NCBI RefSeq assembly: GCF_005047655.1
Contig: NZ_SUKF01000002.1
Location: forward strand, 498,930 to 562,929
Source of the DNA: Sinimarinibacterium arenosum
GTDB taxonomy: Bacteria; Pseudomonadota; Gammaproteobacteria; Nevskiales; Nevskiaceae
Direction of reading: 5' to 3'
Length of the DNA stretch: 64,000 nt
Shown here: positions 3,757 through 41,514 of the stretch, piece after piece
Position numbering within the stretch: position 1 is the stretch's first letter
How the letters are laid out: each line of letters starts with the position of its first letter
Position numbers and translations under genes: made by a program
The notes under the pieces: model-generated
What the model saw: the letters and a program-made list of their open reading frames with translations, nothing else
Told to the model about the DNA's origin: nothing
Databases searched by the model: none

Positions 3757-3827
3757 TTGAATAGCGCCTCCAAGCATTGAATTTTTATATGCGCCAACCC
3801 GCGCAAGGGATCGTTGCGACGTTTGAT

Positions 3828-17040: not shown

Positions 17041-18546
17041 TTACGCTGCGACCGCCTTGGTCGACGGTTGTGCCTGGGTCACGACCTGGTAGTCGGACAT
17101 CACCGGCTCAGCGGTGCGCCGCTTGAACTCGCCCATCAGGCCGATCCAGTTGTTGGTATTGCGGCCGCTTTCAGTCGTGTACCAGCTGTGGCATCCGCCT
17201 TCGAACGTGGTCTTGGCACTGCGCTGCAGGATCTCCTGCACATAGGCGGACTGCGCACCGGCCTTCACCTCGACCGGCCCCATCTTCTGCGCGCGGCGCT
17301 GCTGCAGCATGCGCACGATGTAGCGCTGCTGGCATTCGAGCATGAAGATGATCGAACCCGAACCGACATTGGTGTTCGGGCCGTACAGCATGAAGAAGTT
17401 CGGGAAGCCCGACACCGCCATGCCCAGATACGCCTCGGCGCCATCCTTCCAGGTTTCGTGCAGATCGATTCCGCCGCGCCCGCTGACACGCATCGGCGTC
17501 AGGAACTGCGTTGCGGCGAAACCGGTACCGAAGATGATGGCGTCGACCTCGCGCGTCCGGCCATCGGCGCTGCGCACACCGGTCTCGGTGATCTCGGCAA
17601 CGTCGTCGGTCACCAGCTCGACATTCGGACGCGCCAGCGTCGGCAGCCAGTCGCGCGTCAGCAGAATGCGCTTGCAGCCGATGCGGTAGTTGGGAATCAG
17701 CTTGCGCCGCAATGCCGGGTCGCGCAGCTGGACGTAGAACTGCATTTTCGAGAACGCGGTCACCAGCTGCTCGGCCCACGTGTGCCCGGCATAGGCGTAG
17801 CCCAGAGCCTCGGTCATCCAGTAGATGCGCGCGCGGTCGATGTCGTGCAGCATCGGAAAGGTATCCAGCAGCCAGCGTTCAAAGCGCGAGAACTTGCGAT
17901 CCAGCTTGGAAATGATCCAGCCGGGCGAGCGCTGATACACATCCATCCGCTTGAGCTTCGGCGCGATCGCCGGCACGAACTGGATCGCGCTGGCGCCGGT
18001 GCCGATGACGGCAACCCGCTTGCCGTCGAGATCGTAGTCGTGATCCCAGTGCGCCGAATGGAACATGCGGCCCTGGAAGCTGTCGAGCCCCTTGATTCTG
18101 GGAATCGCCGGCCGGTGCAGCTGGCCCACCGCGCTGACGACGGTGTCGGCCTCGATGCGCTCGCCGTTGGCCAGGGTCACCACCCACAGACCACGCGCAT
18201 CGTCGAACTCGGCGGCGCGGACTTCCGCGCCGAAACGGATGTGCGGCTCGATGCCGTACTTGCGTGCACAGTGCTGGATATAGGCCAGAATTTCCGACTG
18301 CGGCGCGTAGCGGTTGGACCACGGGTAGTGCGGTTCAAACGAGTACGAGTACAGATGCGACGGCACGTCGCAAGCCGCCCCCGGATAGGTGTTCTCGCGC
18401 CAGGTGCCGCCGACGTTCTGCGCCTTCTCGAGGATCACGAAATCCTCGATCCCGGCCTGCTTCAGGTAATACGCCATGCCCAGGCCGCCGAAGCCCGAGC
18501 CGATGATCGCGACGGCAAAGCGCGCCGGCTGTCCGGATGCGTCCAT
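17041..18546 (-). CDS. Flavin-binding Baeyer-Villiger-type monooxygenase
   Basis: The 501-residue flavoprotein has two dinucleotide-binding motifs, GSGFGG (residues 16-21) and VIGTGASA near 190, flanking the Baeyer-Villiger fingerprint FxGxxxHxxxW, seen as FQGRMFHSAHW (157-167). Such enzymes insert oxygen next to a ketone to give an ester, using NADPH and O2. The start at 18546 has GGAGGAG five bases upstream, better than an in-frame start nine codons earlier. It diverges from an AraC regulator. A methyl-ketone substrate would fit the cluster, but the sequence does not fix it. Confidence 0.9.
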   Translation of the reverse strand: MDASGQPARFAVAIIGSGFGGLGMAYYLKQAGIEDFVILEKAQNVGGTWRENTYPGAACDVPSHLYSYSFEPHYPWSNRYAPQSEILAYIQHCARKYGIEPHIRFGAEVRAAEFDDARGLWVVTLANGERIEADTVVSAVGQLHRPAIPRIKGLDSFQGRMFHSAHWDHDYDLDGKRVAVIGTGASAIQFVPAIAPKLKRMDVYQRSPGWIISKLDRKFSRFERWLLDTFPMLHDIDRARIYWMTEALGYAYAGHTWAEQLVTAFSKMQFYVQLRDPALRRKLIPNYRIGCKRILLTRDWLPTLARPNVELVTDDVAEITETGVRSADGRTREVDAIIFGTGFAATQFLTPMRVSGRGGIDLHETWKDGAEAYLGMAVSGFPNFFMLYGPNTNVGSGSIIFMLECQQRYIVRMLQQRRAQKMGPVEVKAGAQSAYVQEILQRSAKTTFEGGCHSWYTTESGRNTNNWIGLMGEFKRRTAEPVMSDYQVVTQAQPSTKAVAA

Positions 18547-18571
18547 GAATTCTCCTCCACTCCAGCTGGAC

Positions 18572-18591
18572 ATTGTGCACTGTCATTGTGC
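18572..18591. promoter_or_regulatory. Direct repeat ATTGTGC in the BVMO-araC intergenic region
   Basis: ATTGTGC occurs at 18572-18578 and 18585-18591, a 13-bp period, just upstream of the BVMO gene. Short direct repeats of this kind are typical AraC half-sites. It is separate from the TTGCGGCCAA motif 37 bp further on. Confidence 0.4.
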
Positions 18592-18622
18592 CCTGCCGGA
18601 TGACGCCCTCGGTCATTTGATT

Positions 18623-18651
18623 GATACTTGCGGCCAAAGGGATTCATCCAG
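18623..18651 (+). promoter_or_regulatory. Putative AraC operator, copy 2
   Basis: This is the second copy of the TTGCGGCCAA-containing motif (18628-18637, then TTCATCCAGG), 38 bp before the AraC start. See 10402-10429 for the first copy. It could mediate autoregulation and activation of the divergent monooxygenase. Confidence 0.45.
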
Positions 18652-18674
18652 GCCACCTTCGAGTCGATTCGCCG

Positions 18675-19691
18675 ATGTCACCCAGCAACGTGCCCCGCAG
18701 CATCGTCAGTATGCAGTTGCTGACCCGGCTGGCATCCGAGCACGGCATGTCGGCAAGCGACTGCCTGTGGGGCACCGGTGTATCTCCGGAGGCGCTGGCC
18801 GATGCGCACACCGAAGTGCTGCCGGCGCAGGAGCTGCAGCTGGTGCGCAACATCGTGGCCCGGATCGGTTACCTGCCGGCACTGGGCCTCGCCGCCGGCG
18901 CGCGCTATCACCTGTCGGTCTACGGCGTCTGGGGCTTCGCGCTGGCGACCAGCCCGACTCCCCGCGCACTGGCCCAGGTTGCCACGCGCTACCTCGATCT
19001 CAGCTTCGCCTTCATTCGCTTTTCGCTGCGCTTTGATGACGGAGCGCCCTGCGTCCTGATGGACGACACAGGCATTGCCGATGACGTGCAGCAGTTTCTG
19101 CTGGAGCGGGATTTCGCTGCGATGGTCAATGCGATGACGGAAGTGATGCCGGGTGCCTCGCCGTTCCAGAGCGTGCACTTCCGCTGCGCCGAACCGGCGT
19201 ATGTCACCCAGTTCGTCGAACTGTGCGGCCTGCGTCCGCAGTTCGGCATGCCGGACAATGCTGTGTTCCTGAAACCCGAGTATCTGGACACGGTGCTGCC
19301 GCAGGGCAACGAGCTGGTGTCGCGCGCCTGCGAGGACTACTGCCGGCGCCTGCTCGCACGCAAACGCAAGCGCGTCGGCATGTCCGCACGCGTGCGCGAC
19401 CGCCTGCTGCAGACACCGAACAACATGCCGGACATCGAGGCACTGGCCGCCGAGTTGCACATGGCGCCACGCAGCCTGCGCCGGCGCCTGCAGGAAGAAG
19501 GCACCTCGTTCCGGGCGCTGACCGAAGAGGTGCGCCAGGCGCTCGCCGAGGAAATGCTCAAGACCGCCAAGCTCAAGCTCGACGAAATCGCCGAGCGCCT
19601 GGGCTATGCGGAGTCGGCCAGCTTCATCCACGCCTTCAAGCGCTGGACCGGGCAGTCACCGACCGCATTCCGCCGCGCACACGCGCGCTGA
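18675..19691 (+). CDS. AraC family transcriptional regulator
   Basis: This 338-residue regulator has the long N-terminal ligand-sensing domain of the OruR/arabinose-binding-like type (about residues 10-220, with YGVWGFALATSPTPRALAQ) and a C-terminal double helix-turn-helix from about 235, with MAPRSLRRRLQEEGTSF and LGYAESASFIHAFKRWTG. It diverges from the Baeyer-Villiger gene. Repeated motifs in this gap and in the gap before the SDR suggest that it controls both. The start at 18675 is chosen because the preceding 18 codons of the open frame are not family-like and overlap the shared promoter motif; the ribosome binding site is weak. Confidence 0.9.
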   Translation: MSPSNVPRSIVSMQLLTRLASEHGMSASDCLWGTGVSPEALADAHTEVLPAQELQLVRNIVARIGYLPALGLAAGARYHLSVYGVWGFALATSPTPRALAQVATRYLDLSFAFIRFSLRFDDGAPCVLMDDTGIADDVQQFLLERDFAAMVNAMTEVMPGASPFQSVHFRCAEPAYVTQFVELCGLRPQFGMPDNAVFLKPEYLDTVLPQGNELVSRACEDYCRRLLARKRKRVGMSARVRDRLLQTPNNMPDIEALAAELHMAPRSLRRRLQEEGTSFRALTEEVRQALAEEMLKTAKLKLDEIAERLGYAESASFIHAFKRWTGQSPTAFRRAHAR

Positions 19692-19709: not shown

Positions 19710-22082
19710 CTACAGCGTTTTCAGATACTCGATGATCGCGCGACGCTCCTGATCCGTCAGCACCGCCGTGAAGGCGTGGCCCTGATTGCCCTGCCCGTAC
19801 ATGCGCGTGTTGTAGATTTTGCGCGTCTCCAGCTGCTCGTCGCTGGTCGGCCCGGTGCCGAGATACCAGAGATACGGGTTGCTGGAGTTGAGAATGTTCA
19901 GCAGGTCCTGAAACACCGGATCGGTATCGTTGGTGCTGCAGTCCAGATACGGCGTCGTGCCCGGCTCACCGCAGGCCAGCGTCTGGTACTTCCAGCCCAG
20001 CCTGTCGGTGTCATAGGCGCGCCCGAAGTCGGTGTCGTATCCCATCACAAAGCCCAACTGATCGACCCGCGCCGGCGTCGACACGCGGCGCCAGATCGTC
20101 TGGCGATCCGCCGGCTGCAGCACTTCCCAGACATTCGGCACCGAACCGTTGTGGAAGTACGGCGCCGTGGCCCAGACACCGTACAGCGGCGGCGCCAGAT
20201 AGCCGTGCTCGCGACCCTGACGGATCTCGGCACGATTCTGCGTGCTGCAGTCCAGGTCCGGATCGTCGTTCAGCGTCTCCGGATAGGCGAAGAAGTTCTG
20301 CTTGCCGTACTGCTCGGCCGCTTCGCTGTCGCTGTCGACGCGCTGGGGATCGGTGCCGATCAGGTCACGCGGCACGATATAGCTGGCGACGCCTTCGAGC
20401 GCGGGCGTGTCCAGATACGCCGGGTCATTGACGTAGCGTGGCGAGTACGCGCCGTGGCAGCTGGCGCAGGAACCGTTGCCACCGGCCGGCCGCGGTAACG
20501 GATTATCCAGACCGGCACCCCACAGATCCTTGGAATGGAACAGGATCGCGCCCTGCGCCGCCAGCGCGGTGTCGATCGCGCTCGGATACGCCGGCGACTT
20601 CAACGACATCACATAGGTATCGCCGGCACGCGCATGCTGCTTGATCCAGTCGAACCCGGCGGGACCGGGCCCCGGCAGATAGAAGCCGAGATCCGAGCGC
20701 AGCGCGTCCATCGCCAGAAAGCCGTCCTGGAACTTGACCGGACGATGGCCCATGTTCCACCACGCCGGCGCATCGATCGATCCGCCGTTGGGCGTGAGCA
20801 GCGCAAAGCCGATGAAGTCGGGGTCGAGCGGACGGATGTCCTGCGCCAGCAGCAACGTGATGATCTGCAGCGCCAGCGCGTTGTTGGTCCCGCGCGTCTT
20901 GCCGACGATGATCGGCACCTGCGCCGGCACGCCGGCGTAGCCATGCCCCAGATCGAGATCCATCTGACCGAACTCGCTGAGACTGTTGGCATTGCCGTAG
21001 AGCGTGCCGATGCTGTCGACGCCGGAGATCTGGCCGCTGTGACAAACATGGCAGGTGGTGCCGAGATTTCCTGTCCAGCCGCCGTCCGCAGTGCGCAGCT
21101 GGGTCAGTCCGGTCGGCAGCTGTCCGCTGCCACCGTCGGTCGCATTCGGGTCCTCGCCCGGCAGCGGATACGGATTGCGGATCGCGCCCATGCCCATGCC
21201 ATACCGCTCGGCCACCAGCGGGTCGAAGTTGTCCGGCCGCGCATCCAGGCCCCAGGCCTGCCACAGCGTGTTGTATTCCTCAGCCGTGAAATTGCCGGTC
21301 TCGCTGGCGCTGCCACCGAAGTACCAGCCGGCGCCGATCGCGCCGTTGCCCTCGATCAGCGCGCGGCCGCTCGCGGTCATCGCACGCAGCTCTCCACAGG
21401 TTTGCGCCGGCGGCTCTTCGCCGACCGCAGCCGGGTCCGCGTGGCAGTCCTTCCAGTACGCGTTGTAGTAGACCGCTTTGCCGCTGTTGACGCCGGGCAC
21501 GATCAACGCGCGCGGATCGGTGGGCAGCGGTGTGTCGTCGGATTTGCCTTCGCAGAAGTCGAACCAGGCGTGTCCGCCGCGTGCGCTGCCCAGCAGAGGC
21601 AGATCCTCCACCACCGAGCCGCCGTAGCTCGCAAGCCGTCCGGCGCAGCCGGACGGATCGGCAAAGCACTGCAGCAGGATATCCATCGCCTTGTAGGCGT
21701 CGCTGCCCTGCGGCCACGGTGCGCCGCCCGAGTGCGGCCTCTCTTGCCCCGACGCCATCAGCAGAATCCGCGAGGTCGGATTGTTCTCGCCGAGACGCAG
21801 CCATGACGCCCGCAGGTTCTCGAGATCGGCGTTGCGGTCACCGGACAGCATCATCTTGCGACCGTCGTCGACATCGGCGATGCCGCCCGGCACGTGACAA
21901 GTGCGGCAGAAGTCGAGCCGCGGCTGCACGTTGCCGGTGAAATGTTCTTCGACGCTGCGCGCCTGCGCGCTGCCGCCGCCATCGCCCGTAGCGGTGCCGC
22001 CGCTGTAGTCGCCGGAACACGCCGACACCAGCACCACAACCGATGCCAGCAACCCCGCCGCACGTTGAGTCAACTGATCCAC
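19710..22082 (-). CDS. RoxA-like multihaem cytochrome c, tri-haem lipoprotein (paralogue 1)
   Basis: The 790-residue product has three CXXCH haem sites: CRTCH (59-63), CHVCH (344-348) and CASCH (539-543). The last two, 195 residues apart, match the spacing of the two haems in the rubber oxygenase RoxA (about 199), and GNGSCASCHGAYSPRY and PLYGVWATAPYFHNGSVP are RoxA/MauG-superfamily blocks. Bacterial cytochrome c peroxidases have much closer haems. The extra N-terminal haem lies in an added mono-haem domain. The signal ends in lipobox VSAC (Cys22), so it is a predicted lipoprotein. The GTG start at 22082 has GGAGGAG six bases upstream; longer frames lack this. It follows its paralogue in the same operon. 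The substrate is unproven: polyisoprene cleavage or another peroxidase/oxygenase role. Confidence 0.85.
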   Translation of the reverse strand: MDQLTQRAAGLLASVVVLVSACSGDYSGGTATGDGGGSAQARSVEEHFTGNVQPRLDFCRTCHVPGGIADVDDGRKMMLSGDRNADLENLRASWLRLGENNPTSRILLMASGQERPHSGGAPWPQGSDAYKAMDILLQCFADPSGCAGRLASYGGSVVEDLPLLGSARGGHAWFDFCEGKSDDTPLPTDPRALIVPGVNSGKAVYYNAYWKDCHADPAAVGEEPPAQTCGELRAMTASGRALIEGNGAIGAGWYFGGSASETGNFTAEEYNTLWQAWGLDARPDNFDPLVAERYGMGMGAIRNPYPLPGEDPNATDGGSGQLPTGLTQLRTADGGWTGNLGTTCHVCHSGQISGVDSIGTLYGNANSLSEFGQMDLDLGHGYAGVPAQVPIIVGKTRGTNNALALQIITLLLAQDIRPLDPDFIGFALLTPNGGSIDAPAWWNMGHRPVKFQDGFLAMDALRSDLGFYLPGPGPAGFDWIKQHARAGDTYVMSLKSPAYPSAIDTALAAQGAILFHSKDLWGAGLDNPLPRPAGGNGSCASCHGAYSPRYVNDPAYLDTPALEGVASYIVPRDLIGTDPQRVDSDSEAAEQYGKQNFFAYPETLNDDPDLDCSTQNRAEIRQGREHGYLAPPLYGVWATAPYFHNGSVPNVWEVLQPADRQTIWRRVSTPARVDQLGFVMGYDTDFGRAYDTDRLGWKYQTLACGEPGTTPYLDCSTNDTDPVFQDLLNILNSSNPYLWYLGTGPTSDEQLETRKIYNTRMYGQGNQGHAFTAVLTDQERRAIIEYLKTL

Positions 22083-22217
22083 CCGGTTCTCCTCCCTCAT
22101 CGCGAACACCCTGAGGCGCCCATCGTCGTGCCGAAGACCGCACGGCAACAGGCGCCCGCGCAGCCAGGGCATTGAGCGCAGGGGCCACGCCGCAAGCGTT
22201 CGCGTCATTCGGCCGAT

Positions 22218-22241
22218 GAAGTCGGCGCAGCCGCCGACTTC
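22218..22241 (-). terminator. Hairpin between the two RoxA-like genes
   Basis: GAAGTCGGCG (22218-22227) and CGCCGACTTC (22232-22241) form a perfect 10-bp stem with a CAGC loop, four bases after the stop of paralogue 2. There is no T-run, so it may attenuate transcription or stabilise the upstream mRNA rather than terminate fully. Confidence 0.6.
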
Positions 22242-22244
22242 ACG

Positions 22245-24701
22245 CTACAGCGTCTTCAAATATTCAATGATCGCCTTGCGTTCCTGCTCGGTCAGCACGT
22301 CGGTGAACGCGTGTCCGCCATTGCCGTTACCGAGGATGCGCGTGTCGTAGACCAGGCGCTTGTCGATCGCGCCTGGCGTCGAATCAGGAATGTTGATCAA
22401 ACCGCTCCACGACAGCGTCTCGTTGAGGAAATTCTGTACCAGCTGTACCAGCGACGGACCTTCGTCGCTGACCGGATTGCAGTTGGCCAGTGGATCGCCG
22501 GGGATATCGCTGCAGCTCAGCGCATCGGATTTCCAGCCCAGCGCGTCATCGTCATAGGCCACGCTCATGCGCTGATCGAAGCCCTTGATGTCGCCTTCGA
22601 TCTGCAGCTTGCGCTGCCAGATCGGCGCGCGCTTGGAGGTATCCAGTACCGCATCGATCGTCGGCACCGAACCGTTGTGCAGATACGGCGCCGTGGCCCA
22701 CACACCGTACAGCGGCGGCGCCTGATAGCCGATGACTTCCTTCTCCCAGCCGCAGACACCGAGCGGACGCAGTTCGGTCGGCAGCAGATCATCGAGCGCC
22801 TCGGTCAGCGGGTCCTTGTCTGCCGGCGCAACCCAGCCGTCGACATTGTCGGTGTAGCCCCAGTAGGTCGTATCCCAGCGTTGGCGCAAGGTCGGCGTCA
22901 GCATGTCCGAGCGGGCGTGGTCGGTGTCGATCACGTCCAGCGGCGAGATGTGCGCAGCCACACCTTCCAGCGTCGGATTTTCCAGGTAGGCCGGATCGTT
23001 GACGTAGCGCGGCGAGTAAGCCCCGTGGCAGCTGGCGCAGGAGCCGTTGCCACCCTGCGGCTTGGGTCGCTCGGCATTACCCGGCTCGGCCCACAGATCC
23101 TTCGTGTGGAACAGCACCGCACCCTGCTCGGCCAGCGCCGTATCGATCGCACCCGGATACTCCGGTGAGCGCAGCGACAGGAAGAAGGCTTCGAGATCCT
23201 GATCGTACAGCTCGATACGATCGCGATACTTCTTGCCGTCGAATGAGACCAGATCCTGGAACTCGCCCGGACCGGCGGCCATGATGATGCGCGTGCTGTC
23301 GTTGGACACACCGGCATCGAAGAACTTGCGCGGACGTGAGCCCATGTTCCACCACGGCGGCGTGTCCTGCGTGTGCGCCAGCGGATGCGCGACGTCGATC
23401 AGGCCGGTTGCGCCGACCATGGTCTTCAGCGGATCCGGGTTCAGACCGAGTGAATCCAGATCGAGCACGGTGATCAGGAACTCGAACGCGCCAACTGCGT
23501 TGTTCTGGCCACGCTGCTTGATACCGATGTTGAACAGGCTGTTGATGTCGGTCGATGGCAGCAGCGTCGAGAACGGCGTGCCGGCAAACGGCGAGGCGTC
23601 CGCGCCGTTCATTGGGACATCGTAGTTGTTGTTGCCCAGGCCGACGTTCTCCAGCGTGATGGCTTCACCGGCATTGGTCGCGCCGATCTGGCCACCATGG
23701 CACTGGAAGCACGCGGCGGTGCCGATCTCGCCGGTCCAGTTGCCCTGATCGTCCTTCAGCTGGCGCAGACCCAGCGGCAGTTGCCCGGAGCCACCGTTGG
23801 TGGTGGCCGGATCTTCACCCGGCAGCGGATAGGGGTTGTCGAACGGCGCGTGATTGAGACCGTAGCGCAGCGTGTAGAGATCGTCGAAATTGGCGGGACG
23901 CTCGGACATCCCCCACTTCTGCCAGCTGTTGTTGAAGTCGTCCGCGGTCATCGCGGCCACCGGCAGCTCGTTGATCAGGAAGTCGCGGCCCCGATCACGC
24001 CGTGCGCGGTACTCACCGCAGGTCTTGGCCTGTTGCTCGGCTTCCGCCATGTTGACATGGCAGTTCTCCCAGTAGGCGTTGAAGAACACCGCCTTGCCTT
24101 CATTGGCACCGGGCTGCACCAAGGTGCGCGGATCCGGCGGCAGCACCGCCGCATCGTCCTTGTCCGCACAGTAGCTGGCCCACAGGTGTTCGGCATGCTT
24201 GCTGCCGAGCAGCGGCGCTTCGCTGACGACCGGACCATCGGTGAGTGCATCAAGGCAGCCGACCGGGTTTTCAAAGCACTGCAACAGCGCACTCATGTCG
24301 ACATACGCGGCGCTGCCGACCGGCCACGGCTGACCCCCGCTGTGCGGCTTCTCCTGGCCCGACGCCATCAGCAGGATGCGCGAAGTCGGATTGTTCCCGC
24401 CCAGCCGCTCCCAGGACGCACGCAGGTTTTCGAGGTCCTGCGCGCTGTTGCTCGACAGCATCATCTTGTCGCCGCCGTCGACGTCGGCAACGCCGCCCGG
24501 TACGTGACAGGTGCGGCAGAAATCCAGCCGTGGCTGTGCGCGCTTGACGAAGAAGTCGTCGACCGAGCTGAAGCTGCCGCCGCTGGTACCGGGCCCATTG
24601 CTGCCGGTGGCAGTGCCGCCGCTGTAGTCGCCGGAACAGGCGCCGAGCAACAGGCTCAGCGTAGCGATCGCGAAAAATTTCTGCCGTGTATCGGTTTGCA
24701 T
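22245..24701 (-). CDS. RoxA-like multihaem cytochrome c, tri-haem lipoprotein (paralogue 2)
   Basis: The 818-residue paralogue of the next gene shares its layout: lipobox LLGAC (Cys22), N-terminal mono-haem domain with CRTCH (62-66), then CFQCH (331-335) and CASCH (555-559). The spacing between the last two is 224, longer than in paralogue 1 because of an insertion. PPLYGVWATAPYLHNGSVPT and the C-terminal GGHAFTDVLTEQERKAIIEY are shared. Non-haem cysteines are also conserved between the two (NCH near 213-215, C228). GGGGAG lies seven bases before the ATG at 24701. It is 68 bp downstream of the DUF3570 gene. It probably acts on the outer face of the periplasm or cell surface. RoxA-like by haem spacing; activity inferred. 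Confidence 0.85.
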   Translation of the reverse strand: MQTDTRQKFFAIATLSLLLGACSGDYSGGTATGSNGPGTSGGSFSSVDDFFVKRAQPRLDFCRTCHVPGGVADVDGGDKMMLSSNSAQDLENLRASWERLGGNNPTSRILLMASGQEKPHSGGQPWPVGSAAYVDMSALLQCFENPVGCLDALTDGPVVSEAPLLGSKHAEHLWASYCADKDDAAVLPPDPRTLVQPGANEGKAVFFNAYWENCHVNMAEAEQQAKTCGEYRARRDRGRDFLINELPVAAMTADDFNNSWQKWGMSERPANFDDLYTLRYGLNHAPFDNPYPLPGEDPATTNGGSGQLPLGLRQLKDDQGNWTGEIGTAACFQCHGGQIGATNAGEAITLENVGLGNNNYDVPMNGADASPFAGTPFSTLLPSTDINSLFNIGIKQRGQNNAVGAFEFLITVLDLDSLGLNPDPLKTMVGATGLIDVAHPLAHTQDTPPWWNMGSRPRKFFDAGVSNDSTRIIMAAGPGEFQDLVSFDGKKYRDRIELYDQDLEAFFLSLRSPEYPGAIDTALAEQGAVLFHTKDLWAEPGNAERPKPQGGNGSCASCHGAYSPRYVNDPAYLENPTLEGVAAHISPLDVIDTDHARSDMLTPTLRQRWDTTYWGYTDNVDGWVAPADKDPLTEALDDLLPTELRPLGVCGWEKEVIGYQAPPLYGVWATAPYLHNGSVPTIDAVLDTSKRAPIWQRKLQIEGDIKGFDQRMSVAYDDDALGWKSDALSCSDIPGDPLANCNPVSDEGPSLVQLVQNFLNETLSWSGLINIPDSTPGAIDKRLVYDTRILGNGNGGHAFTDVLTEQERKAIIEYLKTL

Positions 24702-24769: not shown

Positions 24770-25945
24770 TCAGAATCGGTAGTTCACGCGGGCCTGCACG
24801 CTGTAGTACTCGACCAGGCCCGGGTTCTCGACATCGACCGGGCGGATGGCGTAACTGGCAGAAGCGTCGTAGACCTCGACACCGCCGCCCACTTCCCAGT
24901 GCTGATCCAGCGACTTGCGTACATCCAGCCGTGCCGACAGTGCGCCAAACGGCGACAGCCGGTAATCACTGGACGCAAAGCCGTCTTCGCGGAAATCCGC
25001 GTAATACGGTGCGTAGAAATACGCCTGCGACTGGCTGTACCAGCGCAGCGACGGACTCACGAGCCAGGTCTCGCCGAGGCGTTGCTGCCAGCTCAGGTCC
25101 ACCGTGTGCGATTCGATCTCCCAGTCATCCTGGAAGTAGCGATAGTCGACATGCACCGCCGCAGCCAGCGCCGGCAGGTAGTGCCGCCAGCGCGCGCTCA
25201 GGGTCCAGCTCTGACGTCCATCCGGCCGACTTTCCGGCACGGCATTGGCCACCGAAACAAAGTAAGCGCGCTTGTACGGATCGGTCAGGTAACCGTCATG
25301 CAGGCTGTAACTGAACACGGTCTGCAGCACCGTCTGTGCATCGATGATCCAGGACAGCCCGGCGTACGCGGTCAGGCTGTTCTTGTCGGCACTGCGGATG
25401 CGATCGGGATACTTCGCACTGCCGCCATCGGTCGGCTCGATGCGATCGTCGGAATAGCCGATGCCGGCACTGGCGCTGTAGACACCGCCCTCGGGCGTGT
25501 ATTGCGCCTCGACCCCGACATTGACCGACTGATAATCCTCTTCGCTGGAGTAGCCGGCCTTGAACACCGGCTCGATCGGGCCGAACTGCATGCCGTAGCT
25601 GGCTTCGATGTCGACGCGTTCCTCGTCGATGCTGGCGCCGCTCATGACCTGCACCGGCTTGCCGTTGGCATCCGGCTGCACCCACCAGGGGCTGGCGCCA
25701 CTCATGGTCTCCAGCGTCAGGTTCAGATTGGCATCCCCCGCACCCAGGTTCCCGCCGACACGGAACAGATGCGAGTCGATCGTGTAGCGCTCGGAGGCAC
25801 TGCCGCTGGCGCTGTTGCCCGCCGGCAGATCACCCTCTGCGTAATGCGAATACAGGTAGTCGGTCTGCAGCTCGGCATGCGCAAGACCGGGAATCGCCAA
25901 TGCGGCGGACGTCAGTGCGGACAGCTTGGGCGTTCGGAACGTCAT
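24770..25945 (-). CDS. DUF3570 outer-membrane beta-barrel protein
   Basis: This 391-residue protein has a cleavable signal peptide (MTFRTPKLSALTSAALAIPG, then LAHA) and alternates amphipathic strands through to a terminal VNYRF, the C-terminal Phe signature of outer-membrane barrels. The N-terminal LETMSGASPWWV and the YSSEEDYQSV segment fit DUF3570. Its ATG is two bases after the DUF4266 stop, so translation is probably coupled. DUF3570, DUF4266 and a thioredoxin-like protein recur together in bacteria, but their joint role is not established. Here they lead into two haem lipoproteins, so the barrel could carry substrate or product, or hold the cytochromes at the surface. Confidence 0.82.
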   Translation of the reverse strand: MTFRTPKLSALTSAALAIPGLAHAELQTDYLYSHYAEGDLPAGNSASGSASERYTIDSHLFRVGGNLGAGDANLNLTLETMSGASPWWVQPDANGKPVQVMSGASIDEERVDIEASYGMQFGPIEPVFKAGYSSEEDYQSVNVGVEAQYTPEGGVYSASAGIGYSDDRIEPTDGGSAKYPDRIRSADKNSLTAYAGLSWIIDAQTVLQTVFSYSLHDGYLTDPYKRAYFVSVANAVPESRPDGRQSWTLSARWRHYLPALAAAVHVDYRYFQDDWEIESHTVDLSWQQRLGETWLVSPSLRWYSQSQAYFYAPYYADFREDGFASSDYRLSPFGALSARLDVRKSLDQHWEVGGGVEVYDASASYAIRPVDVENPGLVEYYSVQARVNYRF

Positions 25946-25947
25946 AT

Positions 25948-26163
25948 TCAGTTGCACCCGCAACCGCCGCCGCCCAGCGTCGGGCCGCCGGTTGCGGCTT
26001 CCTTGCTGAACTCGACGTGACGACGGTAGCCAGCCAGCAGCGGATCCGGCTCGAACGCCATCTCCGGCCGCGCCAGATCACCGCGCTCCCAGGGCTGCAC
26101 CGGCTGCGTGCTGCAACCCGCCAGCCATACCAGTGCTGTCAGCGCCAAAATGCCTCGTTTCAC
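25948..26163 (-). CDS. DUF4266 small lipoprotein with C-terminal CGC
   Basis: The 71-residue protein is a lipoprotein (LVWLAGC, Cys17) followed by VQPWERGDLARPEM, RRHVEFSKEAATGG and a glycine-cysteine tail ending GGGGCGCN. This is the DUF4266 pattern. The two C-terminal cysteines separated by one Gly could form a redox or metal/cofactor site; the gene directly upstream encodes a thioredoxin-fold protein, which makes a thiol-exchange partnership plausible. Its ATG overlaps the TlpA stop (ATGA) and its stop is two bases before the DUF3570 start. Confidence 0.88.
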   Translation of the reverse strand: MKRGILALTALVWLAGCSTQPVQPWERGDLARPEMAFEPDPLLAGYRRHVEFSKEAATGGPTLGGGGCGCN

Positions 26164-26651
26164 GGGGACTCCTCCAGAGCTTGGTCTATCGCCAGTTCCA
26201 GCGTTGCCAGATCGCCTTCACGAAAGCCGACCTGGACATGCCGCACACGGCCATTGCGGCCGATCAGATAACCGGTCGGCATGCCGGGGAGCGCAAAGCG
26301 CTCCGGCCACACGCCGTCAGGGTCAAACACAATCGGAAAGGAAAGTTGCAGCCGGTCCAGCAGCCGCTGCGCGTCACTACGCCGGGTATCGACGTTGATC
26401 GCGAGCACCGCGAAGCCGCGCGGCGCCCGCTCGGCGTACAGCCGCTGCAGCGCCGGCAGTTCCTGCAGGCACGGCGCGCACCATGACGCCCAGAAGTCGA
26501 TGTAGAGCACACGCCCACGGTAGTCCTGCGGGCGCTGTGTCGTGCCGTTGTGATCCTGCGCCACCAGATCTGGTGGCAGCTCGCCCGTGCCCAGGGCAAG
26601 CGCCGCGCCTGATACCCACATCAGCGCAGCTGCCGCGCTCCTCCAGCGCAT
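26160..26651 (-). CDS. TlpA/ResA-like periplasmic thioredoxin
   Basis: The 163-residue protein has an N-terminal signal sequence (MRWRSAAAALMWVSGAALAL) and a TlpA-type thioredoxin fold with the active site FWASWCAPCLQELP (about residues 53-66), and the cis-Pro region LPGMPTGYLIG. Periplasmic thioredoxins of this type reduce disulfides, for example in apocytochromes before haem attachment. As the first gene of the coupled cluster that ends in two tri-haem cytochromes, it may keep their CXXCH cysteines, or those of the DUF4266 protein, reduced. It overlaps DUF4266 by ATGA. Confidence 0.93.
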   Translation of the reverse strand: MRWRSAAAALMWVSGAALALGTGELPPDLVAQDHNGTTQRPQDYRGRVLYIDFWASWCAPCLQELPALQRLYAERAPRGFAVLAINVDTRRSDAQRLLDRLQLSFPIVFDPDGVWPERFALPGMPTGYLIGRNGRVRHVQVGFREGDLATLELAIDQALEESP

Positions 26652-30420: not shown

Positions 30421-33288
30421 CTACTCGATAAGCCCCAGATGCCGGGCGACGGCAATCGCCTGCACCCGGTTGCTGATCTGCAGCTTCTCGAAAATGTTGC
30501 GCAGGTGCCATTTAACGGTGTTGGTCGACACCGACAGACGCTCCGCCAGATCCTTGTTTGAAAGGCCCAGCGAGACATAACGCAACAGGTTGCGCTCCTT
30601 GTCGGTCAGGCTTTCAAACAGCTGCGGCGCGATCGCGGCATCTCCCGAAGCCTGCAGCACTTCCGGCACCGCGCCAACCACTTCACCGGCTTCGGCCAGC
30701 AGATAGTTCAGATAGGCCAGCAGAACATCCTGATGCCCCAGCTTGGGCAACTGATCGAAGCCGCGATGGGTTTCTTTCAGCAGCTGTATCAGCATCGGCC
30801 CTTCGTCGAGAAAGCTGCGCACGAATTCGCGCGGGGCGCCCAGCTCCAGTGCTTCCAGCAAGGAGCGCCGGGCACAGTTGTGGCGCCCTTCGGCGTTCTG
30901 CGCCAATGCCAGCATCACCGTCAGCTTCAGTTCGCGACGCCGGCGTCGCTGCGCCTTGGCGCGGCGGATCTGCGCCTGCAGCATGCTGCGCGCCTCACCA
31001 CTGCGCCCGACATGGACCAGATAGCGCGCCACCGTCACGCTGCGGGCTTCGGTTTCGCCAGCGTGGAACAGCAGCGCATCGTCATCAGCGTCATGATCCG
31101 CCGGACTCAATTCACGCAAGCGCCGCTCGGCCAGGTCGAGGTCACCGGACAAGGTGGCCTGACGTGTGCGCTCGGCCTTCGCGTACGTCACCAGCCGCGC
31201 GAAATCATGCTGATAGCCGAGATACAGGGCGCGCTCCAGCACGTCCTCGGCCTGCGCACGGTCGCCGCGTTCGTACGCGATGCGCGCGCTGGTCAGCAGC
31301 ATCGTCGCCAGCGGATCGACGATCGCCTGCTGCTCGGCCAGCTGGCCGTAGTCGTTCAGCAGCACCTGGGCGTCGGCCAGCTTGTTCTGCTCGTAATAGC
31401 CGTCGGCCAGATACACCGCCAGCACCGAGCCGGCGGTCACACTGCCGCTGGCCTCCTGCTCGGTATGGCGCAGCGCCGCGGACAGTCCGCGCATCGCGTC
31501 GGTGATACGACCTTCGGCGAGCAGCGACATCGCATAGATCGCTTCCTGGTAGGCCTGACCGAACAGCGAGCCTTCGCGGTCGAGCAAGGGGCGCGCCTTC
31601 AGCAGCAGCGTACGTGCCTCCTCGAACTGGCTGCGGCCGACCAGCCACACACCACGCGCGTTGTAGGTGATGGCCAACTGTGAGCCGTCAAGCTCGCTCA
31701 GGTGTCGCCAGGCCTGCTCGGCGCTGTGGCCGAGCTCCTCGATGCGGTCCTCGGCGGCGAGCACGAACAGACGCGCGTAGTCGTGCACAGCCTGCGCGCG
31801 CGCATCGGGCTGCGCCTGCAACTGGCGCGCGCGTGCATCGATCAGGCGGTTGGCCTTGTCGAAGGCCCGGCGGAAGCCGTAGGCGATGATCGCCGCATTG
31901 GCCAGATTCGGATGGCGCAGCAGCATTTCCGGCGGCAGTTCGTCGGCATAGCGCTCGATCAGGCCGAGCCGCTCCTGCGCGATCAGGCGGTCGATGACCG
32001 TTTCGAGCAGCTCCGCCGCCTGCTCGGGATCGCCGGCGTCGATGCAGTGCTGGATCGCCTCCTCGCGGCAGCCATGGCCGGCATACCAGTCGGCGATCTG
32101 ACGCTGGCGCCGACGCAGCTCGGCCGGCGCGGTCTCCTGACGCATGCGCGTCAGGAGAAACTGGCGGAACAGGTTGTGGAAGCGATACCAGCTGCCCTCG
32201 AGATCCGCGTGGCCGAGAAACAGGCCGGCACGTTCGATCTCGTCGAGGACGGCCTGACCGTCCCCGGTGCCGGCGACAAAGCCGACCAGTTCACCGTTGA
32301 GTTTTTCCGGAACGCACAGGGCGAACAAGGTGGCCTGCAACTCAGGCGACAGGTGCTCAAACACATCCGTTGCCAAATAGCTGATCAGGTCCTGGGTCAT
32401 GCCCTTGCCGGCATAGGCCAGACTGCGATGCTCGCGGCCACGCCGTATGCACAGGCGGAAGCACTGCAGCGCGGCCGGCCAGCCGTCGGTGCGACGATGG
32501 ATGTCGGCGATATCCGCCGGCGTCAGCCCGGGCACCTCGCGAAAGAACTCACTGCATTCGTTGATGCCGAAACGCAGCTCGCTTTCATCGATCACGACCA
32601 TCTGTTCACGCATGCGCAGACTGACCAGACGGTCGGATGGCAGCACACGCGACCCGATACACAGCTGCACGCCCTCTGGCAGCACGCGCACCACCTGCAT
32701 GAACACGCCTTCGAGATCCGCGGTAAAGGCCTGCTCGAAATTGTCAACGACGATCAGGCCGCCGCCGCGCAGACGCCCAAGCGCGCGATTGAAATCCTGG
32801 ATCGTCGGTGGGCGTGGATCGAGCCGGGCCTTGCGCTGACGCACGCGCTCGTCGAAACCATCGGCCGCGTCGCACAGCAGGCGCAGAAACTGCGCCGGAT
32901 CGGCCGACTGCGCATCCATCCGCATCCAGGCGATCTGATCACCACGCGCGGCACGGTAGTCGCTGTATTGGCGCAGCAGGGTGGTCTTGCCGAAACCGGC
33001 CGGCCCCTGCACCAGCGCCAACGGCGCTTGATGATGGGCTTTCAGGCGATCCAGCGCAGCCTGACGCAGCACCAGAGAACGCGAGCCCGTGGAATCGGAG
33101 CGCGACGCCTCAAGGGAATCTGCGGCTGCCACACGGACCGCAAGCTTCGCGGTTCTGCGTGTCACCGGTTCTATTGCAACTGCGGGTTCCGCAGCTGTCT
33201 CCTCAACAGTTCGAGGCCGCATGGTAGCGCCGGCCTCGGGCGCCGACAAACGCCGCTTCGAAACTGCAACCGTGGCCACAAGCTCCAT
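30421..33288 (-). CDS. Large ATP-dependent LuxR (MalT/LAL-type) transcriptional regulator
   Basis: This roughly 955-residue regulator has a Walker A motif GPAGFGKTT (about 95-103), a Walker B-like GGGLIVVDNFEQAF, a long TPR-like helical region, and a C-terminal LuxR helix-turn-helix in the last 65 residues (LTDKERNLLRYVSLGLSNKD, then STNTVKWHLRNIFEKL). LAL regulators bind ATP and an inducer, oligomerise and activate promoters. The N-terminus is uncertain: a GTG at 33297, the ATG at 33288 used here, and a Met 22 codons further in are all possible, none with a clear ribosome binding site. It follows the MDR oxidoreductase by 14 bp, and sits within the set of genes carrying the 16-bp motif. Confidence 0.92.
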   Translation of the reverse strand: MELVATVAVSKRRLSAPEAGATMRPRTVEETAAEPAVAIEPVTRRTAKLAVRVAAADSLEASRSDSTGSRSLVLRQAALDRLKAHHQAPLALVQGPAGFGKTTLLRQYSDYRAARGDQIAWMRMDAQSADPAQFLRLLCDAADGFDERVRQRKARLDPRPPTIQDFNRALGRLRGGGLIVVDNFEQAFTADLEGVFMQVVRVLPEGVQLCIGSRVLPSDRLVSLRMREQMVVIDESELRFGINECSEFFREVPGLTPADIADIHRRTDGWPAALQCFRLCIRRGREHRSLAYAGKGMTQDLISYLATDVFEHLSPELQATLFALCVPEKLNGELVGFVAGTGDGQAVLDEIERAGLFLGHADLEGSWYRFHNLFRQFLLTRMRQETAPAELRRRQRQIADWYAGHGCREEAIQHCIDAGDPEQAAELLETVIDRLIAQERLGLIERYADELPPEMLLRHPNLANAAIIAYGFRRAFDKANRLIDARARQLQAQPDARAQAVHDYARLFVLAAEDRIEELGHSAEQAWRHLSELDGSQLAITYNARGVWLVGRSQFEEARTLLLKARPLLDREGSLFGQAYQEAIYAMSLLAEGRITDAMRGLSAALRHTEQEASGSVTAGSVLAVYLADGYYEQNKLADAQVLLNDYGQLAEQQAIVDPLATMLLTSARIAYERGDRAQAEDVLERALYLGYQHDFARLVTYAKAERTRQATLSGDLDLAERRLRELSPADHDADDDALLFHAGETEARSVTVARYLVHVGRSGEARSMLQAQIRRAKAQRRRRRELKLTVMLALAQNAEGRHNCARRSLLEALELGAPREFVRSFLDEGPMLIQLLKETHRGFDQLPKLGHQDVLLAYLNYLLAEAGEVVGAVPEVLQASGDAAIAPQLFESLTDKERNLLRYVSLGLSNKDLAERLSVSTNTVKWHLRNIFEKLQISNRVQAIAVARHLGLIE

Positions 33289-33302
33289 CGTCGTCACGCG
33301 CT

Positions 33303-34319
33303 TCAGCGCGGCTCGTCACCGATCCTGACCATCAGCTTGCCTTGATTACCGCCGCTGTAGAGCAGCTTCAGTGCGTCGACGGCGTTCTCCAGGCCATCGA
33401 CCACGTGCAGTCGATACTTCAGCTTGCCTTGCTGCATCCAGCCGGCCAGCTGCATCTGATATTCCGGGTAGCGGTCCAGGTAGTCGAGGATCACGAAACC
33501 CTGAATCGTCAGTCGCCGCATGATGACGTTGCGGAACATGTAGGGGCCCGGCACCGGACCGGAGGCGTTGTAGGTCGAGATCAGACCGCAGATGACCACA
33601 CGTCCGAAATCCTTCATCACCGTCAGGCCGGCATCCAGCACCTCGCCACCGACATTCTCGAACAGCACGTCGACGCCGTCAGGCGCCAGCGCCCGCAGGC
33701 GTTCGACCACATTCTCGTTCTTGTAGTCGACCACCGCGTCGTAACCCAATTCGCGCAGCCAGCCACACTTTTCGGCACCACCGGCGATGCCGATCGTGCG
33801 GCAGCCGTGAATCTTGGCGATCTGCCCCACCAGCATGCCGACCGCACCCGCGGCCGCAGTGACCAGGACGGTGTCGCCCGGCTTCGGCTTGCCGATCTCC
33901 ATCAGACCGACCAGTGCGGTCGGACCGGCCACGGTCAGGATGCCAAAAGCGTCGGCCAGACTCAGACCCGGAATCGGCGGCAGCTTCTGCATCGCCGCAC
34001 CGTTGTCGATGATGTAGTCCGACCAGCTGCTGAGCCCGGCCACCAGATCGCCCGCGGCATAATTGGAGTTGAGCGACTTCACAACCTCACCGACGACGAA
34101 ACCGCGCATGCGATCGCCCAGATGCACCGGCTCCATGTAGATGTCCCAGTCGCTGAGCCAGACGCGGTTGGTCGCATCCAGCGACATGTACACCGCACGC
34201 ACCAGAAACTCGCCGTCCTTGAGCGGGGGTAGCGGCTCTTCGCGCAGCACCAGGGTCTGGTCGTCGATATCGCCTGCGGGGCGCTGATTGAAATACCAGT
34301 GGCGTGCGCTGCTCGACAT
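33303..34319 (-). CDS. NADP-dependent MDR oxidoreductase (alkenal/enone reductase type)
   Basis: This 338-residue zinc-independent medium-chain reductase resembles leukotriene B4 12-hydroxydehydrogenase/CurA-type enzymes, which reduce alpha,beta-unsaturated carbonyls. Visible are VYMSLDATNRVWLSD, the cofactor motif TAAAGAVGMLVGQIAK, GCRTIGIAGGAEKC, LFENVGGEVLDAGL and CGLISTYN. No structural-zinc cysteine lobe is seen. The ATG at 34319 lies seven bases after GAGGAG; an in-frame extension upstream is arginine- and cysteine-rich and rejected. It is probably cotranscribed with the LuxR gene 14 bp downstream, and carries motif site B 69 bp upstream. Confidence 0.9.
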   Translation of the reverse strand: MSSSARHWYFNQRPAGDIDDQTLVLREEPLPPLKDGEFLVRAVYMSLDATNRVWLSDWDIYMEPVHLGDRMRGFVVGEVVKSLNSNYAAGDLVAGLSSWSDYIIDNGAAMQKLPPIPGLSLADAFGILTVAGPTALVGLMEIGKPKPGDTVLVTAAAGAVGMLVGQIAKIHGCRTIGIAGGAEKCGWLRELGYDAVVDYKNENVVERLRALAPDGVDVLFENVGGEVLDAGLTVMKDFGRVVICGLISTYNASGPVPGPYMFRNVIMRRLTIQGFVILDYLDRYPEYQMQLAGWMQQGKLKYRLHVVDGLENAVDALKLLYSGGNQGKLMVRIGDEPR

Positions 34320-34387
34320 CGTCCATCTCCTCGGTATGTATTGGATTTCTGGTGGTCGCAGTCTGTAAGGATCGCAACTGTCCCGCA

Positions 34388-34403
34388 CCACCCCAAAGGA
34401 TAG
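34388..34403 (-). promoter_or_regulatory. Recurrent 16-bp motif, site B
   Basis: Read on the minus strand the site is CTATCCTTTGGGGTGG, 69 bp before the oxidoreductase ATG. Fourteen of sixteen positions equal site A. The distance to the gene fits an activator site upstream of a -35 region. Confidence 0.45.
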
Positions 34404-34446
34404 GCCGGACGCCACGCGGGACTCCGGCCGGGATTTCCAGGCTCGG

Positions 34447-35214
34447 TTACATGTTCTCCAGCGTGGTGCTGATGACCCCGCCGTCGACCACCAGTTCGGC
34501 ACCGGAAATGTAGCTGGCATAAGGCGAGCACAGGTACAGCACGGCATCGGCAATATCGTCGGCGCGACCCAGCCGCCGCAGCGGGATGTGCGTCGCCAGT
34601 TCGCGCTTGATCGTTTCCAGCGCCTCGCCTTCGCCATAGGCACGCAGGATCGGCGTATCGATGAATCCCGGCAGAATCACATTGGAGCGAACGCCGGGGT
34701 GCTCCTTGACCAGATCGTGGGTGAACTTGACCAGGCCAGCCTTGCACGCGCTGTAGCAGGCATGACCCGCGGCCTGGATCACCGCCGCGATCGACGCGAT
34801 GTTGACGATGCAGCCACCGCTGCGCTCGAGCATCGGCAGCGCCGCCCGCGCTGCCAGCATCGGCCCTTTCAGCAGCACGTTGAACTGGAGGTCGATCGCG
34901 TCTTCGCTCAGCTCGGCGATCGATTGCAGTCGCGCCAGTCCGGCGTTGTTGATCAGTGCATCGAGACGTCCATGCTGCAATTCGATCCAGGCGATGCCCT
35001 CACCAATGGCGGGGGCGCTGCCGGCATCGAGCTGGCGCGTGACCCAGCGCGCCGCGACGTCCGGCTCCACCTCGATCGCGGCGAGCGCAGCGGCATCGAT
35101 GTCGGTCGCCACCACCGTCGCGCCGGCGCCAAGGAACTGCCGCGCGATCGCCAGTCCGATACCCGATGCGGCGCCTGTGACCAGCACCACTTTGCCGTCG
35201 AACTCAAATGCCAT
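34447..35214 (-). CDS. SDR family oxidoreductase
   Basis: This 255-residue classical short-chain dehydrogenase has TGAASGIG (residues 14-21), LINNAGLA, NIASIAAV and the Tyr-x3-Lys YSACK, and ends with the usual SGAELVVDGG. It oxidises or reduces an alcohol/ketone with NAD(P)(H); the substrate is not evident. The ATG at 35214 is six bases after GAGGAG; an upstream in-frame ATG would add 87 codons of non-SDR sequence. It is 127 bp upstream of the MDR reductase on the same strand. Confidence 0.93.
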   Translation of the reverse strand: MAFEFDGKVVLVTGAASGIGLAIARQFLGAGATVVATDIDAAALAAIEVEPDVAARWVTRQLDAGSAPAIGEGIAWIELQHGRLDALINNAGLARLQSIAELSEDAIDLQFNVLLKGPMLAARAALPMLERSGGCIVNIASIAAVIQAAGHACYSACKAGLVKFTHDLVKEHPGVRSNVILPGFIDTPILRAYGEGEALETIKRELATHIPLRRLGRADDIADAVLYLCSPYASYISGAELVVDGGVISTTLENM

Positions 35215-35514
35215 GTCCTTCTCCTCGTCAGTTTGGGGTGGCTGACCGGACGACAGCCGACCTGATGTCTGCCGCAGTCTGCGCAGCATCGGGTGGTGCA
35301 GCCCTACCCCTATGGGCGGTGTCGCGCGGCATGTACGCCCGAGGCGGCGATGGCATCGAGCGGTGGGCGCCGGGTCCACGGGTCCAGGGCGCGCGCCTGT
35401 CACGGCAATACCCCATCGGGACAGGCAGCGCCTGCGTGGTGACGCTGTGCGGACGCAGCGACACCCGAGACACATGGAACCCGTGCGGGCGCACGGGTAG
35501 CGGACCGGAACAGC
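35215..35514. other. 300-bp gap between the SDR and DUF1329 genes
   Basis: No gene is supported. Around 35300-35330 is CCCTACCCCTATGGGCGG, which on the minus strand (CCGCCCATAGGGGTAGGG) loosely resembles the 16-bp motif seen upstream of neighbouring genes. The size of the gap suggests that the SDR has its own promoter. Confidence 0.5.
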
Positions 35515-36894: not shown

Positions 36895-36957
36895 CGCTGC
36901 TCCCGGTGTCGCATCACCCGCGACGGGCTTTGGCATCCCTTCCGTAAAGAGAGTGCA

Positions 36958-36978
36958 CGGCGGCGACACGCGCCGCCG
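36958..36978 (-). terminator. Hairpin between the DUF1302 and DUF1329 genes
   Basis: CGGCGGCG (36958-36965) and CGCCGCCG (36971-36978) form a perfect 8-bp stem with loop ACACG, 26 bp after the DUF1302 stop. There is no T-run; partial termination between the two genes is possible. Confidence 0.45.
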
Positions 36979-36992
36979 GCACTAACGGGGGG
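36977..36992 (-). promoter_or_regulatory. Recurrent 16-bp motif, weaker site D
   Basis: On the minus strand CCCCCCGTTAGTGCCG shares the 10-mer CCCGTTAGTG with site C and 12 of 16 positions overall. It is 83 bp before the DUF1329 start, but it overlaps the edge of a hairpin, so it is the least secure copy. Confidence 0.3.
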
Positions 36993-37003
36993 AGAACCGT
37001 GCA

Positions 37004-38929: not shown

Positions 38930-39021
38930 ATAGTTATTGCTCCTCTTTGTAATGCCCGCCGCTGCACTTGCCCCTACCCCACCGCCGGCCGGCTCCGGAT
39001 CAAACCTCGAGCGACATCGGA

Positions 39022-39999: not shown

Positions 40000-40062
40000 C
40001 GAAAACCTCCAGCCTGCGCCGCCGGCTCGCGGCCAGCGGCGCAGCGCATGTGGTGACAGCAC

Positions 40063-41439: not shown

Positions 41440-41514
41440 GTGTAGCTCCTCCGGGTATCTGATTCCCTGATGACGCTCGCAATGACCCGAGTACGGGCTT
41501 GAAACCGACAGCGC

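Follow-up and report, generated by a model that had tools for sequence, protein, structure and literature searches.

Tandem tri-haem Rox lipoproteins beside a DUF3570 outer-membrane barrel in Sinimarinibacterium arenosum carry an N-terminal haem domain that co-varies with the barrel

The enzymes closest to those described here are the rubber oxygenases RoxA and RoxB and a third Rox cluster, RoxC, which is the largest of the three (243 of 458 sequences) and consists mostly of lipoproteins, a substantial number of them with a third, N-terminal haem (Prakash 2024, PMC10837239; this paper, PMC8238504 and PMC10301912 are cited throughout from portions of their text). The third haem of RoxC sits at CRTCH, and there are members without F317 or W302 (Table 1 there); two expressed RoxCs, a tri-haem protein from Fontimonas and a di-haem one from Oceanococcus, gave no latex cleavage (unpublished results told in that paper), and the function is given as unknown, with oxidation of unsaturated fatty acids suggested. 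A full-text literature search, with most subscription papers outside its reach, found no further paper on RoxC. There is a precedent in Escherichia coli YhjA for a di-haem core fitted with an input haem at its N terminus (PMC10301912). In Chlorobium luteolum, ApbE flavinylates the DUF3570 protein at two [S/T]GA[S/T] sites (Meheust et al. 2021, PMC8238504), and flavinylated DUF3570 clusters also hold DsbD, thioredoxin-like and DUF4266 genes, the function of DUF3570 being termed uncertain; the main text of that paper mentions none of RoxA, rubber, cytochrome c peroxidase or a barrel, and a full-text search of the same reach found nothing beyond it on DUF3570 or DUF4266. Here we describe a locus of Sinimarinibacterium arenosum, within a 64,000-nucleotide stretch of contig NZ_SUKF01000002.1 (the window), where two tri-haem Rox lipoproteins, A and B, follow a DUF3570 gene on the minus strand in the order TlpA-DUF4266-DUF3570-A-B. 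What is new is this genomic setting; the third haem is not new to science, being published for RoxC, and so the original prediction, which presented a fused relay haem and a lipid anchor as a distinct variant of the family, had been anticipated in print.

Protein A (22245..24701, minus strand) has 818 residues counted from its ATG, and protein B (19710..22082, minus strand) has 790, from a GTG at 22082 preceded by a GGAGG ribosome-binding site. Each contains exactly three CXXCH motifs, at C72, C341 and C565 in A (numbering of the 828-residue open reading frame) and C101, C386 and C581 in B (832-residue frame), the last two lying 224 residues apart in A and 195 in B; the lipoboxes are LLGAC in A and VSAC in B, each followed by SGDYSGGTATG. 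The lengths, motif counts, spacings and lipoboxes of the original prediction were all correct. Among the open frames of the window over 100 codons, only A and B have more than one CXXCH, which excludes chance for the multi-motif pattern. Both cores match the solved RoxA structure 4B2N by phmmer (E 1e-116 for A, 2.1e-124 for B), bearing out the predicted RoxA-type core, and the first CXXCH of each falls beyond the matching region, as predicted for an added mono-haem N-terminal domain (N-domain). The predicted model of B (predicted local distance difference test score, pLDDT, 87.2; predicted template-modelling score 0.90) superposes on 4B2N in Foldseek (E 1.6e-49; template-modelling score, TM, 0.65 by query and 0.79 by target), and 4B2N is the sole strong relative in the PDB, by sequence for A and B and by fold for B.

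With their tag linkers, the N-domains span 24255..24632 in A and 21645..22013 in B (minus strand; alignment A4, of 25 chosen N-domains; 184.2 and 179.7 bits in the genome search). A Pfam scan of stand-alone copies and of a three-domain protein (L184) found no family over its cut-off for the N-domain. We aligned A and B with 73 others taken from 89 N-domain proteins (alignment A2; under 890 residues, exactly three CXXCH). The first CXXCH is invariant there, partly by selection, because three such motifs were required; a second N-domain His, 54 residues after it (H117 of B), was not selected for and is invariant in all 75. The lipoboxes agree with the lipid anchoring originally predicted, and A and B are probably surface-exposed di-haem enzymes of Rox type, with a predicted anchor in the outer membrane. 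The host genome, of 4.54 Mb, holds a third Rox protein at C21:266131-268515.

The two proteins belong to different parts of the family. A profile search placed A in RoxC (NF051462, 1342.7 bits against a cut-off of 900) and left B below the cut-offs of both RoxC (875.6 bits) and RoxB (NF050034, 858.3 bits, cut-off 900); against the RoxA profile (NF050033, cut-off 1000), A and B scored 502.8 and 520 bits. By profile score, pocket residues, predicted lipoprotein signal and CRTCH, A is assigned to RoxC. At the sites of RoxA F317 and W302, A has Ala and Phe, as does the third copy in the genome, and B has Phe and Gln. In the core alignment of 151 distinct Rox cores plus RoxA, the equivalents of RoxA H195, H394 and H517 are invariant in 152 of 152 rows, and that of H641 is kept in 150, with a gap in the remaining two. 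The core tree puts B in a 64-member clade together with 35 RoxB tips and excludes A (support 0.985); together with the differing pockets, this rules out A and B as one type, which the original prediction had assumed, and B is best described as a tri-haem lipoprotein whose core sits on the RoxB side and has kept F317. The 35 RoxB tips have no N-domain, and one has a lipobox. Since RoxC is named but lacks a defined function and B is below its cut-off, the search did not assign the pair to a known tri-haem family of defined function; rubber-oxygenase activity cannot be assumed for them, given the two inactive RoxCs. Two further tri-haem lipoproteins (L046 8315-10915 and L057 5890-8280) score above the RoxB cut-off of NCBIfam (922.6 and 917.7 bits), one of them with Ala at the F317 site; the annotation names RoxB and RoxC fail to separate the types of the tree.

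To characterize the company that the N-domain keeps, we surveyed 61 genomes of relatives and a second set of 44 further genomes, all with some Rox (44 of 50, six duplicating the first set; 50 of 52 loci used, L175 and L163 omitted). Of 209 relatives, the best 80 (76 loci) supplied the related loci, so this sample leans toward B-like proteins. The N-domain is carried by 22 of the 61 genomes and 17 of the 44. Every one of the 22 also encodes a DUF3570 in the score class of the window's own (158-218 bits; only contig-edge fragments in G040), versus 5 of the 39 genomes without the N-domain (Fisher 3.6e-12); the second set gives 15 of 17 versus 1 of 27 (Fisher 8.9e-9). This class, type II, was separated from type I on the score and extent of the PF12094 match, a criterion chosen after the scores were seen; weak N-domain matches in seven genomes (E 2.9e-11 to 4.4e-4) were scored as absent, and G010 and G015, with odd or broken DUF3570s, were scored as type II in genomes lacking the N-domain, which works against the test. 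The two genes are also close together. An N-domain lies within 15 kb of a DUF3570 in 15 of 22 genomes of the first set (expected 0.66) and 12 of 17 of the second (expected 0.39), 27 of 39 in both, and within 6 kb in 12 of 22 (expected 0.27) and 10 of 17 (expected 0.15). Neighbourhood counts required flanks of at least 7 kb on both sides for comparison by clade and at least 5 kb for that by pocket type; a DUF3570 lies within 10 kb of 0 of 26 RoxB-clade tips versus 23 of 52 N-domain proteins. One RoxB-clade tip outside those 26, in Spongiibacter pelagi, is 17.4 kb from a DUF3570.

Within a genome, N-domains resemble one another beyond what their cores predict. Among 85 of the 89 N-domain Rox proteins (at least three CXXCH; 31 genomes), same-genome pairs with cores below 60% identity exceed different-genome pairs by an N-domain residual of +15.6, compared with 1.0 (standard deviation 1.1) in permuted data (0 of 5000 as high). 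The nearest relative comes from the same genome for 29 of 73 N-domains and 3 of 73 cores. A sliding-window scan begun at B residue 41, with signal, lipobox and linker ahead of it, confines the likeness to B residues 41-163; the residual is 5.8 where the scan crosses the border and between -1.0 and 1.2 from residue 164 onward. N-domain identity further tracks that of the linked DUF3570. Across the 26 Rox genes that have one of 17 distinct DUF3570s within 10 kb, the partial r given the core is 0.44, equalled or exceeded in 1 of 5000 permutations; in pairs with cores below 60%, the N-domain correlates with the linked DUF3570 at an r of 0.38, compared with 0.02 for the core, and taking 24 genomes as the units gives a partial r of 0.37 (0 of 5000 permutations). 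Stagnimonas aquatica (G019) has two modules: the Rox pair beside one DUF3570 shares 98% N-domain and 54% core identity, and this pair has only 52% N-domain identity with the Rox beside the other.

The module of the window, which carries most of the meaning of the locus and was missed in the original prediction, begins with a TlpA/ResA-like thioredoxin with WCAPC (26160..26651, minus strand; PF00578, 70.5 bits; NF002854, 88.6 bits, under its cut-off). It continues with a DUF4266 small lipoprotein of 71 residues that ends in GGGGCGCN (25948..26163, minus strand; PF14086, 75.2 bits) and the DUF3570 outer-membrane beta-barrel (24770..25963, minus strand; PF12094, 204.4 bits). The TlpA and DUF4266 genes overlap, as do those of DUF4266 and DUF3570 if the latter begins at TTG; gaps of 68 bp and 162 bp separate DUF3570 from A and A from B. 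The barrel has two SGAS motifs, at residues 88-91 and 108-111. Its AlphaFold2 model (pLDDT 90.9) shows 16 long strands and an aromatic last residue, and the 50 Foldseek matches listed are all outer-membrane barrels (query TM at most 0.51); if short turns are taken as periplasmic, the SGAS motifs would border an outward loop. A second DUF3570 in the same genome (G000:C12:393137-394438, L101) is of type I and has its own TlpA, DUF4266 and ApbE and no adjoining Rox, which rules out that any DUF3570 would do. In a midpoint-rooted tree (alignment A3, 35 of 42 DUF3570 frames, with duplicates, one cut and one broken copy omitted; branch support not considered), the Rox-linked DUF3570s stand apart from type I and mostly from those linked to DUF1592. 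Some genomes, G011, G039 and G046 among them, have ApbE inside the cluster.

We propose, with moderate confidence, that the N-domain docks with a flavin-carrying DUF3570 barrel and receives its electrons, A and B being Rox enzymes that each have an input haem. TlpA and the CXC protein DUF4266 would hand reducing equivalents to the outer-membrane barrel, which would hold a pair of flavins; the N-domain, whose haem is bis-His by conservation, would dock onto the barrel and accept the electrons, which would pass to the C-terminal bis-His haem and then to the open N-terminal active-site haem. There, O2 (or peroxide) would be activated and an unsaturated isoprenoid or lipid cleaved. The differing cores, with Ala in A and Phe in B at the F317 site, would serve different substrates, and the N-domain would be their common plug. 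The products of B, which on the analogy of RoxA and RoxB should be an aldehyde and a methyl ketone, would feed the neighbouring flavin monooxygenase (FMO) and beta-oxidation genes. An electron relay, as originally predicted, is supported as a likely role of the N-terminal haem.

Several observations weigh against this proposal. The core may not need electrons at all, since RoxA and RoxB have no input haem and still cleave rubber, and electron direction, flavinylation, surface exposure and substrate in this organism are inferred. The window contains no ApbE, three copies of which lie elsewhere in the genome. The presence of the N-domain switches at least 17 times on the core tree, indicating that it was often gained, lost or moved. 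Two genomes, of the isolate Zhongshania aquimaris (G067) and of a metagenome bin (G076), have an N-domain and no DUF3570 match; G049 (93% complete) encodes a di-haem RoxC lipoprotein and neither an N-domain nor a type-II DUF3570; and G066, one of the 12 of 17 genomes with close linkage, has a stop within its DUF3570 frame. The type-II DUF3570 of G038 adjoins a DUF1592-type protein rather than a Rox, and that of G045, on a 3.7-kb contig, groups with the DUF1592-linked ones; both entered the Fisher test as type II. Likeness within the genome fails in Spongiibacter pelagi (median 42% for the N-domain, 44% for the core), in the pairs of G011 (N-domain 29%) and L134 (39%), and in L109, whose RoxA-like protein has 51-53% with its neighbours. 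Finally, the linkage and Mantel-type tests are only partly corrected for phylogeny.

The tag that follows the lipobox extends the picture to other haem lipoproteins. A search of the 61 genomes with a DNA pattern for C-x-G-[DN]-Y-S-G gave 28 matches, compared with 9 for the backward control, and the present genome has two, at A and B (control 0). A lipobox precedes the tag in 21 of the 28, all 21 of them in frames that bear CXXCH, and the other 7 have neither. These 21 comprise 15 Rox or N-domain proteins and 6 of other kinds, three of which come from loci with DUF1592-type proteins (G038, G042 and G048, the three covered by the Pfam scan), where a tagged lipoprotein with cytochrome c, CBM2 and DUF1587/1595/1592/1588/1585 adjoins DUF3570-DUF4266-TlpA. 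Two genomes lacking Rox, G014 and G025, encode a lipoprotein with the shorter tag C-G-D-Y-S-G (Pfam typing for G014), which in G014 adjoins a DUF1552 protein (Pfam) with similar sequences in G038, G042 and G048; neither G014 nor G042 has a Rox match anywhere in the genome. Because tagged DUF1592-type lipoproteins stand beside DUF3570, it seems that the module has clients in a second class of haem lipoproteins. The tag by itself is lineage-bound, being present in 42 of 85 lipobox N-domain proteins (loose rule), and many Solimonas paralogues have C-APGRSD instead. GDYSG-type tags also occur on CBM2 and DUF1587/1592/1588/1585 cytochrome lipoproteins at four 20-kb loci (L088 4238-8085, L091 11209-15167, L095 4206-8203 and L097 4139-8178), each lying by a DUF3570 module with no Rox. 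More tentatively, we suggest that a conduit of TlpA, DUF4266 and a DUF3570 with two flavin mononucleotides powers interchangeable surface haem lipoproteins that bear a GDYSG-kind tag, a plug-in haem domain or both. Its clients would be many Rox types of differing active site and, elsewhere, CBM2/DUF1592-type cytochromes; the family would then be fed with electrons for the most part, with the secreted RoxA and RoxB as members that work on their own.

The main alternative is that the module exports or docks its clients at the surface and transfers no electrons to them; on this view, DUF3570, DUF4266 and TlpA would mainly export or assemble tagged haem lipoproteins at the surface, the N-domain and tag being recognized and the third haem structural. 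A tag common to Rox and DUF1592-type lipoproteins and the predicted barrel fold of DUF3570 would both fit, and co-variation fits recognition as well as it fits electron transfer. We nevertheless consider this account unlikely, since export has no need of the flavinylation found on a DUF3570 (PMC8238504), and since the N-domain His H117 of B is invariant in the 75 aligned proteins; a 441-residue lipobox protein of the Nevskia bin G077 (L184 8118-9443, plus strand), with three tandem N-domains and three CXXCH, also looks like a wire and is possibly a short haem wire. Other arrangements of the N-domain were found, and its occurrence as a gene of its own beside DUF3570 favours docking with the barrel. 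In G046, a stand-alone N-domain protein is followed by DUF4266, DUF3570, ApbE, TlpA and a di-haem RoxC, and in G039 the genes are ordered likewise, RoxC following after a gap of 1.4 kb; both stand-alone proteins have a second CXXCH close to their end. At two loci (L185 9814-14005 and L186 9680-13969), an N-domain is joined to DUF11 repeats (typed by Pfam at L185) in a protein that has a hydrophobic stretch at its C-terminal side and whose gene adjoins that for a distant RoxA-like protein of ~530 residues.

The likeness of N-domains within genomes could instead reflect only recurrent gene conversion of paralogue 5' ends and say nothing of a shared partner. Two of eight individually inspected pairs are near-identical at fourfold sites (0.95 and 0.94) and seem to have been converted, and the lipobox linker adjoining the N-domain is also alike in some genera. 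Over all same-genome pairs with cores below 60%, however, fourfold-site identity is 0.627 in the N-domain and 0.610 in the core (0.60 and 0.61 for A and B), an excess so slight that recent conversion is not the general cause of the likeness, and recent conversion alone is ruled out. Furthermore, the likeness tracks the linked DUF3570 even inside one genome. Recurrent conversion as the whole explanation therefore seems improbable to us.

A peroxidase-like or lipid-oxidising role of the MauG/CcpA/YhjA kind, with H2O2 or lipid hydroperoxides being reduced at the outer membrane by way of the third haem, appears rather less probable again. The CcpA-like di-haem core, the three-haem analogue YhjA (PMC10301912), the Ala at the F317 site of A and the fatty acid oxidation suggested by Prakash et al. 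(PMC10837239) are in its favour; in the comparison with YhjA, 9qdt matches only part of the A core (E 0.053), and its match to the B model is not significant (E 2.5). The catabolic neighbourhood suggests substrate use over defence, and up to 14 N-domain copies per genome with varied pockets suggest substrate diversification. These 14 copies are spread along a single 5.4-Mb contig of G036 (L057-L064 and L194), where the Rox pockets vary at F317 and W302. That A and B are plain oxygenases of poly(cis-1,4-isoprene), with the N-domain an anchor spacer and the neighbours incidental, is the least probable account, for although the cores are homologous to RoxA and RoxB, B keeps F317 and the MauG-motif and axial His residues are conserved, two expressed RoxCs were inactive on latex (PMC10837239) and the linkage and co-variation are far over chance.

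The remaining genes of the window place A and B in a catabolic setting, with beta-oxidation genes, CoA ligases including acetoacetate-CoA ligase, a P450, the FMO and DUF1302/DUF1329/MMPL genes. An AraC-family regulator (18621..19691, plus strand; PF12625 and PF12833) converges with its end on the end of B, and its start is back to back with the FMO gene (17041..18573, minus strand; PF00743, 70 bits). The best NCBIfam match of the FMO, at 229 bits and far below the cut-off, is neopentalenolactone/pentalenolactone D synthase, which we take to be a Baeyer-Villiger enzyme. In relatives the FMO is linked to Rox genes of the B pocket type: 6 of 12 Phe/Gln-type genes have a close FMO homologue within 10 kb, and the counts for the Ala/Phe, Phe/Phe and Phe/Val types are 2 of 26, 2 of 10 and 1 of 22. 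A cytochrome P450 with an adjoining 2Fe-2S ferredoxin occupies 2356-4148, and DUF1302, DUF1329 and MMPL transporter genes lie at 33303-44028, beyond a large regulator that resembles LuxR/MalT by look (30421-33297); this stretch looks like hydrophobic-substrate uptake, and the setting as a whole is consistent with a hydrophobic isoprenoid or lipid as growth substrate.

The genomic evidence ties RoxC, which has no known activity or substrate, to DUF3570, a flavin carrier of uncertain function, and makes both testable; the inactivity of RoxC in vitro may be due to a missing electron donor or the wrong substrate. It is unusual for one domain to be alike within genomes while the rest of the protein varies freely, and searches for this signature could reveal docking modules in other systems. 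Set beside the flavinylation systems of Meheust et al. (PMC8238504), the locus has the same gene set minus ApbE and DsbD, with two SGAS motifs and a CXC end on DUF4266. YhjA is a functional analogue, with an N-terminal input haem fused to a di-haem core of peroxidase type; its N-terminal haem is ligated by Met, with quinol as the proposed donor (PMC10301912), whereas the N-domain of A and B is bis-His by conservation and probably at the outer membrane. RoxA (4B2N) shares with A and B the fold and the equivalents of H195, H394, H517 and H641, and differs in being a secreted di-haem protein whose W302 is replaced in both. B resembles RoxB in its supported clade, its CHxCH active-site haem and the Phe at the F317 site; unlike RoxB, a secreted di-haem protein with Val (V294) at the W302 site in the characterised enzyme, B has Gln there, a lipobox and a third CXXCH. 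RoxC is matched by A in lipobox, CRTCH third haem, CFQCH, CASCH, F317 to Ala and W302 to Phe, and B departs from it in its score below the cut-off and its Phe/Gln pocket. No partner system for RoxC is proposed in the portions of PMC10837239 drawn on here, and in this locus A comes after TlpA, DUF4266 and DUF3570.

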